Source: Azospirillum brasilense (GTDB lineage Bacteria; Pseudomonadota; Alphaproteobacteria; Azospirillales; Azospirillaceae). Taken from it: 64,000 nt of DNA. Of the stretch, positions 19,094 through 20,094 are shown in pieces (the first letter of the stretch is position 1; each line of letters opens with the position of its first letter). The position numbers and the translations under genes were made by a program. The DNA lies in assembly GCF_003349955.1 (NCBI RefSeq), contig NZ_QLKQ01000038.1, positions 1 through 64,000 on the forward strand, written 5' to 3'. The notes under the pieces were generated by a model, which saw nothing but the letters and a program-made list of their open reading frames with translations, had not been told where the DNA came from and ran no database searches.

Positions 19094-19516
19094 ATGACGG
19101 ACGCCATTGCGCCCGAGCCGGCGTACGACGACGTGATCGCCGCCATCGCCTTCAACGCCGACGGGCTGGTCCCCGCCATCGCCCAGGCCGAAGGGACCGG
19201 CGAGATTCTGATGATGGCCTGGATGAACCGAGAGGCCGTTCTGGAAACGCTGCGCACCGGCCGCGTCTGCTACTGGTCGCGGTCCCGCAAGGGGTTGTGG
19301 CGAAAGGGCGAGACCTCCGGCCAGATGCAGCGGCTGAAGGATTTCCGCATCGACTGCGACGGCGACACCCTGCTGGTGATCGTGGAGCAGGACGGCGTGG
19401 CCTGCCACACCGGCCGGCGCAGTTGTTTCTACCGCGCGCTGCGCGACGGCAAGCTCGAGATCATTCAGGACGTTGAGACCGATCCTTCGGTTCTCTACGG
19501 ACACACGCATAAGTAA
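19094..19516 (+). CDS. hisI: Phosphoribosyl-AMP cyclohydrolase
   Basis: A 140-aa enzyme of histidine biosynthesis, opening the purine ring of phosphoribosyl-AMP (third step). Visible signatures are MMAWMNREA, CYWSRSRKGLWRKGETSGQ, the metal-binding DCDGDT, and CHTGRRSCFY with its zinc Cys residues. It lacks the HisE domain, as expected in alphaproteobacteria. It is placed behind metC and not with the other his genes. Confidence 0.95.
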   Translation: MTDAIAPEPAYDDVIAAIAFNADGLVPAIAQAEGTGEILMMAWMNREAVLETLRTGRVCYWSRSRKGLWRKGETSGQMQRLKDFRIDCDGDTLLVIVEQDGVACHTGRRSCFYRALRDGKLEIIQDVETDPSVLYGHTHK

Positions 19517-19549
19517 GACGCTAAACCTTCGCTGCAATGCGAAAAGTGT

Positions 19550-19563
19550 TTGATCTATGTCAA
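19550..19563 (+). promoter_or_regulatory. FNR/FixK-type box of the first sRNA
   Basis: TTGATCTATGTCAA differs from the consensus TTGAT-N4-ATCAA at one position. It is centred 41.5 bp upstream of G19598, the classic class II activator position. A -10-like TAGAAC lies at 19586-19591, at -12 to -7. Confidence 0.7.
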
Positions 19564-19597
19564 CGTAGCCCGGAGCGGGAAGAGGTAGAACGCTCTT

Positions 19598-19661
19598 GTC
19601 TCTAACCCTCCCTGTATTCGCCTATGCCGGGGGTTCCAATGGAACCCTCGGCTATTTTTTT
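19598..19661 (+). ncRNA. Putative FNR-controlled sRNA 1 (about 64 nt)
   Basis: The predicted transcript starts at G19598, opens with an unstructured GUCUCUAACCCUCCCUGUAU segment and ends in a 12-bp terminator (19626-19637 with 19641-19652, loop AAT, one G-U) followed by seven T. The CCCUCCC block mimics the anti-Shine-Dalgarno sequence, as in several alphaproteobacterial trans-acting sRNAs. There is no start codon or coding potential. Identity to a named sRNA family is not claimed. Confidence 0.7.
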
Positions 19662-19713
19662 GTCCAAAGTCAAAACCGGTCCGGTTGCAGCGGAACGATA
19701 AAATTATCGCCGA

Positions 19714-19727
19714 TTGATGCAGATCAA
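19714..19727 (+). promoter_or_regulatory. FNR/FixK-type box of the second sRNA (perfect consensus)
   Basis: TTGATGCAGATCAA matches TTGAT-N4-ATCAA exactly. It is centred 41.5 bp upstream of G19762, identical to the geometry of the first unit. A -10-like TAAACA lies at 19750-19755. Confidence 0.8.
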
Positions 19728-19761
19728 CGAAGCGTGTCGTCCGAACAGTTAAACAGTCCTT

Positions 19762-19818
19762 GTCTCTAACCCTCCCTGTATTCACTTAACCGGAGATCCA
19801 CTGGATCTCCGGTTTTTT
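19762..19818 (+). ncRNA. Putative FNR-controlled sRNA 2 (about 57 nt)
   Basis: The predicted transcript starts at G19762 and shares its first 22 bases exactly with sRNA 1. It then has a short linker and an 11-bp perfect terminator stem (19789-19799 with 19803-19813, loop ACT) followed by a T-run. The shared single-stranded 5' region, combined with unrelated stems that keep pairing, argues for selection on the seed and on termination. Confidence 0.75.
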
Positions 19819-19848
19819 CTTGTTCGGGCGGTGGAGACTGGGATTGCG

Positions 19849-20094
19849 TCACGGGCGGTGGCGCGTGCGGGTCCAGCGCATGACCGCCCCGATCACGGAC
19901 AGCGGGACGACGATCACCGCTCCGATCAGGATGTAGGGCAGCGCCCAATGGAACATGTCCGCGGCGAGCCGGGCGATGTCCTGAATCGTCGCCCAACTGT
20001 TGGTCAGGATGCTTGCCGGATTGATGTCGAGGAAGGACATCACCAGCCCGACCACGAAGCACAACAGAAGCGTTCTGACGACCCAACCCACCAA
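19849..20094 (-). CDS. Small two-helix membrane protein, resembles DUF6460
   Basis: An 81-aa protein with two hydrophobic segments (about residues 2-22, VGWVVRTLLLCFVVGLVMSFL, and 50-72, ALPYILIGAVIVVPLSVIGAV), joined by an amphipathic stretch containing LDINPASIL. It resembles the short DUF6460 proteins found beside many alphaproteobacterial housekeeping genes. That assignment is from memory of the pattern. The function is unknown. It is convergent with the sRNA pair. Confidence 0.65.
   Translation of the reverse strand: MVGWVVRTLLLCFVVGLVMSFLDINPASILTNSWATIQDIARLAADMFHWALPYILIGAVIVVPLSVIGAVMRWTRTRHRP

Follow-up and report, generated by a model that had tools for sequence, protein, structure and literature searches.

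We propose that two tandem units in the genome of Azospirillum brasilense encode sibling small RNAs (sRNAs), and we consider it likely that these are induced at low oxygen and block translation of the operon for the low-affinity aa3-type oxidase. In the predicted mechanism, each unit would be a trans-acting sRNA gene with a transcript of its own, driven by a promoter that a regulator of the FNR/FixK type activates when oxygen is low. The RNA of about 60 nt would open with an unpaired seed, GUCUCUAACCCUCCCUGUAUUC, at its 5' end and close with a terminator hairpin, and the seed is predicted to pair with translation starts of the aa3 operon, best with that of ctaD (13 of 13 base pairs, ending at the ATG) and less perfectly with those of ctaE and ctaC. 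Because the pairing ends at the ATG of ctaD and covers its GAGGG Shine-Dalgarno site, established sRNA mechanisms would lead one to expect blocked initiation, and hence repression when oxygen is scarce. The tandem siblings share one seed and probably act additively.

Nitrogen fixation in Azospirillum is confined to low oxygen, and the aa3-type oxidase is a low-affinity enzyme, a role that its lowering by an FNR-type signal would fit. The trade of a low-affinity for a high-affinity oxidase in Azospirillum is a practical question for crop inoculants; A. brasilense is described as having low-, high- and intermediate-affinity oxidases in the part of the literature consulted (PMC6431628). If the prediction is true, the FNR/FixK response would gain a post-transcriptional arm, directed at a named target through an exact pairing that can be tested, and would include a conserved sRNA family that has no match in Rfam.

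Anatomy of the two units

The window, i.e. the whole stretch of 64,000 nucleotides analysed, carries the two units at 19550-19818, with a period of 164 bp. They are intergenic, with hisI (phosphoribosyl-AMP cyclohydrolase, 19094-19516, plus strand) upstream and a gene for a DUF6460 protein (19849-20094, minus strand) convergent downstream. Each unit begins on the plus strand with an FNR/FixK-type box, TTGATCTATGTCAA at 19550-19563, one mismatch away from the ideal inverted repeat, and at 19714-19727 the perfect repeat TTGATGCAGATCAA. A -10-like element follows in both, TAGAAC at 19586-19591, which is only partly conserved in the consensus of 124 contexts, and TAAACA at 19750-19755, as read from the sequence. 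The block CTTGTCTCTAACCCTCCCTGTATTC is identical in the two units (19595-19619 and 19759-19783). The predicted RNAs span 19598-19661 (about 64 nt) and 19762-19818 (about 57 nt) on the plus strand, with the same 5' seed and different terminators. The period, boxes, -10-like elements and 25-base block of the original prediction are thus all present.

Each unit also ends in its own hairpin and T-run, as had been claimed. The intrinsic terminators occupy 19626-19661 and 19788-19818 on the plus strand, each with a 12-pair hairpin (19626-19652 and 19788-19814) in front of the T-run. The fold z-scores of the hairpins are -4.35 and -5.58, and for either unit none of 200 shuffles was equally stable, while the 5' 26-28 nt are unpaired in the folds of both predicted RNAs. 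Stem sequences do differ between copies with pairing kept; this is expected of any terminator and is not taken as a sign of a special structure. In another genome (G038), several places on contigs C49, C53, C71 and C92 match a stretch of 27 nt from the spacer that separates the units, like an intergenic repeat element.

Distribution of the family and position of its box

We searched relatives, as the original prediction had suggested, with a covariance model (R1) of the RNA part alone, built from 18 Azospirillum copies and containing no box. The box-seed-terminator arrangement recurs: full-length copies are found in 44 of 45 Azospirillum genomes, the exception being G040, and 14 of the 37 Azospirillaceae genomes from other genera give full-length matches that score 31 bits or higher; the raw R1 tally of 69 of 81 genomes includes terminator-only matches. 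Searching with the DNA sequence at E 0.001 gave matches in 53 of 82 family genomes, in a few cases limited to short pieces. The matching unit also occurs in records of A. brasilense, A. rugosum, A. doebereinerae and others, and relatives show high identity over the region. Perfect TTGATNNNNATCAA boxes are rare in the genome and the arrangement is recurrent across the family; the two-unit arrangement is therefore not a product of chance. The comparison supports, at the level of sequence, the claim of a pair of short intergenic RNAs with putative FNR/FixK-type promoters, a conserved seed and terminators.

Genomes hold between one and four copies, and the largest set consists of four tandem copies in G017 (L145, 71608-72129 of contig C1), all with box, seed and terminator. 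In other genera, 15 stretches were compared: the copy has hisI as a neighbour in 10 of them and the DUF6460 gene in 8. One Azospirillum group (L149-L164) has split copies on opposite strands about 8 kb apart, separated by an apparent amino-acid ABC transporter, a PLP-type enzyme and hisI in the one locus viewed gene by gene (L149); this locus looks rearranged relative to the arrangement of the window. Outside Azospirillaceae, two box-bearing copies with the altered seeds GTCTCCAAACCC and GTCTCTTGAACC occur in family f16 (L083 and L084). Among the genomes scored as having no sRNA, the one weak R1 match inspected (G069, 21.9 bits) is a SorX-like RNA without a box, and some genomes without a detected sRNA may hold a copy missed by the model.

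That the repeated units are a leader or attenuator, or duplicated terminators with no function in trans, would agree with their being short, terminator-ended and intergenic, and is nevertheless very improbable. The DUF6460 gene is convergent, so the RNAs are not its leader; moreover, each unit has its own promoter elements, identical seeds precede terminators that have diverged, the position beside hisI is kept in several genera, and up to four copies stand in tandem.

The box had been described as centred at exactly -41.5, the class II position, which holds for both window units and does not hold as a universal rule. Exact TTGA-N6-TCAA boxes end 34, 35 and 36 nt upstream of the conserved G in 46, 45 and 28 of 124 distinct contexts, which places the box centre at -41.5 to -43.5, provided that the true start is not displaced by 1-2 nt. 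The box ends 32-36 nt before the predicted start in 123 of these 124 contexts and 37 nt before it in the remaining one. Some of these loci were retrieved by a query that contained the box; in the clean subset of 65 distinct contexts known only through the box-free RNA model, the box is in place in all 65. Likewise, TTGAY-N4-RTCAA is in place in all 17 copies inspected, 16 of them from other genera, which are full-length covariance-model matches of at least 31 bits from a model without the box.

By its sequence the box is an FNR/FixK site, at which FNR, FixK and Dnr-type proteins are indistinguishable. The perfect form TTGATNNNNATCAA has only seven sites in the 7.1-Mb genome, unit 2 among them; of the other perfect boxes, one begins 80 nt upstream of the ccoG/fixG start and another 40 nt upstream of the longest hypD reading frame, both genes being typical FNR/FixK targets. 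The genome has 13 strong matches to Crp/FNR-type HTH domains (at least 48 bits) and encodes FNR/FixK-type regulators with an ETVSR recognition helix. One regulator, with C-x2-C-x7-C and a central Cys, scores best against FnrL (199 bits against a curated cut-off of 300), and another scores best against FixK (177 bits, cut-off 300). What the sequences show is the anatomy of the units, the conservation of box, seed and terminator throughout the family, and the complementarity described below with its distribution; the transcription start, the control by oxygen and FNR, and repression as the result are inferred.

Complementarity to the aa3 oxidase operon

The 5'-terminal 13 nt of the RNA, GUCUCUAACCCUC (19598-19610, plus strand, in unit 1), are fully complementary to GAGGGTTAGAGAC (G000:C139:40147-40159, minus strand), which immediately precedes the ATG of ctaD. 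The gene is identified as cytochrome c oxidase subunit I of the aa3 type by TIGR02891 with 724.9 bits (cut-off 670.75). In 7.1 Mb, GAGGGTTAGAGAC occurs exactly at the ctaD start and in the two RNA genes only; a single additional place differs from it by one mismatch, and the reversed control gave none. The prediction of targets at start regions, also suggested originally, covered 333 start regions from the window and a further 396 kb, 3 of the 336 called genes having no usable start window; gene calls were crude (GC3-based), and for each gene the candidate start with the best energy was taken. No other Watson-Crick helix in this set is as long as that of ctaD (13; next 10), and a helix of at least 7 with nt 1-13 occurs in 3 of the 333 regions, ctaD included. 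The ctaD duplex energy of -25.5 kcal/mol was reached by none of 2000 shuffled sRNAs and none of 2000 shuffled target regions. At 17 nt and three mismatches the complement is not enriched, with five places, two of them the sRNA genes, vs ten for the reversed control. One of the five is the ctaD start, and the match at C135:37502 is antisense to the apparent start of another gene. The site at C105:43760 near a Crp/Fnr gene (three mismatches) was dropped, as the called start is more than 150 nt downstream of it.

The complementarity extends to the same operon. By energy, ctaC, ctaD and ctaE rank 2, 3 and 8 (tied) among the 333 start regions, although G-rich Shine-Dalgarno sequences inflate ctaC and the energy ranks in general. 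The two further genes called between ctaD and ctaE have low ranks, at -19.1 (rank 43) and -10.3 kcal/mol. For ctaE, sought in 33 genomes and read in 32, the start region is GGGGTTGAGAGACG-ATG in G044, G011 and G012 and GAGGGTTGGAGACG-ATG in G014, where all 13 positions are matched with one G-U. The predicted case for ctaC is weaker; GAGGGT(T)GGGG-ATG or GGGGTTGGGG-ATG is seen in many of the loci read. No ctaC was found at 5 of the 30 loci, and for some further loci neither of the two starts displayed is the likely one. A single seed would fit the ribosome-binding sites of ctaC, ctaD and ctaE, and we may extend the proposal to a switch by which all three core subunits of the low-affinity oxidase are shut down together as FNR/FixK activates the high-affinity system. 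Such a switch would be maintained throughout Azospirillum, its dose depending on the number of copies (one to four); this extension falls just short of an even chance. Most second ctaD copies, which several genomes carry (e.g. L255, L256, L258, L260 and L267), have a start region without a seed match, and a second aa3-type subunit I gene may therefore escape control.

The original prediction had envisaged repression of mRNAs with GGGAGGG-type sites in general. Of this, the conserved anti-Shine-Dalgarno block CCCUCCC stands, whereas the strongest and most specific complementarity is that of nt 1-13 at ctaD, which coincides only partly with CCCUCCC. An FNR/FixK-induced pair with a broad anti-Shine-Dalgarno regulon, like alpha-r8 SisA, with ctaD as one of many targets, is a serious alternative that we nevertheless rate at clearly less than even. 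It would account for the conserved CCCUCCC core and for the variability of seed nt 6-9 in other genera, as well as for sRNA-bearing genomes without ctaD pairing or without ctaD. It would also suit the start region AACACAGGGAGGGAACACCC-ATG of a gene for a secreted-like protein (L274 406-1035, G000:C94), a possible second target by its 10-bp seed helix, CAGGGAGGG. It accords less well with seed nt 2-8, which lie outside the anti-Shine-Dalgarno block, are about as conserved as the core in the 18 Azospirillum copies and match ctaD, and with the full 13-mer being found at no other gene start. We regard ctaD as the best candidate target in Azospirillum and not as the only one for the whole family.

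GAGAC abuts the ctaD ATG in 38 of the 44 sRNA-bearing Azospirillum genomes, and a ctaD helix of at least 7 with nt 1-13 is found in 36 of the 44, vs none of 19 family genomes without an sRNA match of 31 bits, the genomes being related and the counts not independent. The median energies over distinct ctaD start regions are -21.1 with the sRNA (n=25) and -12.8 kcal/mol without it (n=10; Mann-Whitney p 0.0015, a value that relatedness makes optimistic). One primary ctaD per genome entered the group comparison and G047, which has no anchor, was left out of the ctaD tables; the unit 1 seed served for all Azospirillum genomes and for those without an sRNA, with ATGG appended to complete the start regions.

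Exceptions occur on both sides. Poor ctaD pairing is seen in the sRNA-bearing genomes G023 (-12.5), G014 (-15.4), G056 (-15.5), G054 (-9.7) and G055 (-6.5); G014 and also G017 (-18.6) combine poorer ctaD pairing with strong ctaE pairing (-25.5 and -24.6, respectively). G057 has the sRNA and no ctaD match at 1e-30, and G046 has it with ctaD present only as a relative of 41% identity, so that other targets must exist. On the other hand, G053, without a detected sRNA, scores -22.2 at ctaD. For ctaE, the scores of genomes in which no sRNA was detected (G053 -23.1, G001 -21.2, G040 -20.3, G067 -15.1, G063 -9.4) overlap the range of the sRNA-bearing ones, and ctaE therefore does not separate the two groups. 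The two box-bearing copies of f16 show no clear ctaD pairing, with modest energies of -20.2 and -16.8. A covariation of seed and ctaD in genus g12, attractive by eye, failed the energy test: compensatory change is not supported, since the Azospirillum seed scores -29.5 on the ctaD of G076 vs -27.4 for G076's own altered seed.

Could the 13-nt match at ctaD be a coincidence, with the RNAs acting elsewhere? The target was chosen post hoc, the genomes are related and exceptional genomes exist. We nevertheless hold this to be improbable, as the match is unique among gene starts in 7.1 Mb, abuts the start codon and is joined by those at ctaE and ctaC, and the pairing persists in most of the genus and, with the exception of G053, is missing from genomes in which no sRNA was detected.

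Relation to known RNA families

No sRNA family of Rfam matches 19400-20000 at E 10, where only chance miRNA and snoRNA models appear, and the Rfam sRNA families run on the window gave no match for the pair. On 13 family loci, Rfam returned at the units only chance-level matches in L020 (BSnc120, 26.2 bits, and BjrC68, 20.5 bits; cut-offs 114 and 39). This agrees with the earlier statement that no homologue had been described. The literature search named no such RNA among the matches listed, most subscription journals lying outside its coverage, and the main text of an RNA-seq paper on strain Sp245 (PMC7685610), supplements aside, has no mention of hisI or FNR in the portions consulted. The units represent a conserved sRNA family that is undescribed as far as our searches reach; the kind of regulator is known, while the family and the predicted regulatory link are new.

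Among the nearest families are alpha-r8/MmgR/SisA-D (RF00519), which are also short, have an anti-Shine-Dalgarno-like CCUCCCU core before a Rho-independent terminator and occur as several siblings per genome. Their defining single-stranded 10-mer UUUCCUCCCU (PMC12559287, as far as consulted) is absent from the window RNAs, which have AACCCUCCCU instead, and the weak hairpin 5' of the 10-mer is missing, the 5' part being unpaired here. The sequences upstream of sisA-D are reported in the same source to share no motif (PMC12559287), unlike the copies of the window family, which share the FNR box. SorX and SorY (RF02784, RF02651) resemble the window RNAs in the CCUCCCUGU core and the terminator. 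RNase E is reported to generate SorX from the 3' UTR of a gene for an OmpR-like protein (PMC6238624); the window RNAs have promoter-like elements of their own and a different 5' end.

Descent from the alpha-r8/MmgR or SorX family, with loss of the 5' hairpin and gain of an FNR promoter, is conceivable and, in our judgement, unlikely. Of the 20 class-wide R1 matches scanned, 16 give SorX, SorY or MmgR below the Rfam cut-offs (about 26-44 bits), sharing CCTCCCTGT and the position of the terminator; by eye, these have an inverted repeat before the terminator, and none has an FNR box within 70 nt. We take RSs2461 of R. sphaeroides to be SorX. FnrL ChIP-seq in that species is reported to show binding at the putative promoters of RSs2461 and RSs0019 (PMC4263372, in the parts consulted), the latter being Pos19 according to the abstract of another paper. 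Against such descent, no suhB/SorX match is obtained for 19400-20000 at E 10 with the alpha-r8/MmgR (RF00519) and SorX (RF02784) covariance models, the 10-mer and the 5' hairpin are lacking, and the genome has seven separate alpha-r8/MmgR copies over the curated cut-off, with several below (L109-L116), where R1 gave only two weak extra matches.

Other systems are alike in logic or layout. AbcR1/AbcR2 (alpha-r15) are tandem sibling sRNAs of Alphaproteobacteria with an anti-Shine-Dalgarno motif; the window pair shares both features and differs in having no Rfam match. A further difference is that the LysR-type regulators LsrB/VtlR are reported to be linked to AbcR1/AbcR2. The motif of cuckoo RNA/CcsR is CCUCCUCCC, which is absent from the window RNAs, where only CCCUCCC is found. 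FnrS of enterobacteria is analogous in having an FNR-type box near the class II position, and differs in the lack of sequence homology (no Rfam match), in the tandem copies seen here and in the direct match to the aa3 oxidase operon. IsrR of Staphylococcus aureus, likened here by description, is an sRNA reported to repress aerobic respiration (PMC12607789, consulted in part), but it is iron-regulated and belongs to an unrelated organism. As a side observation, the printed alpha-r8 copies of our genome share the core GTTTCCTCCCTA or a close variant of it and look like a large set of siblings.
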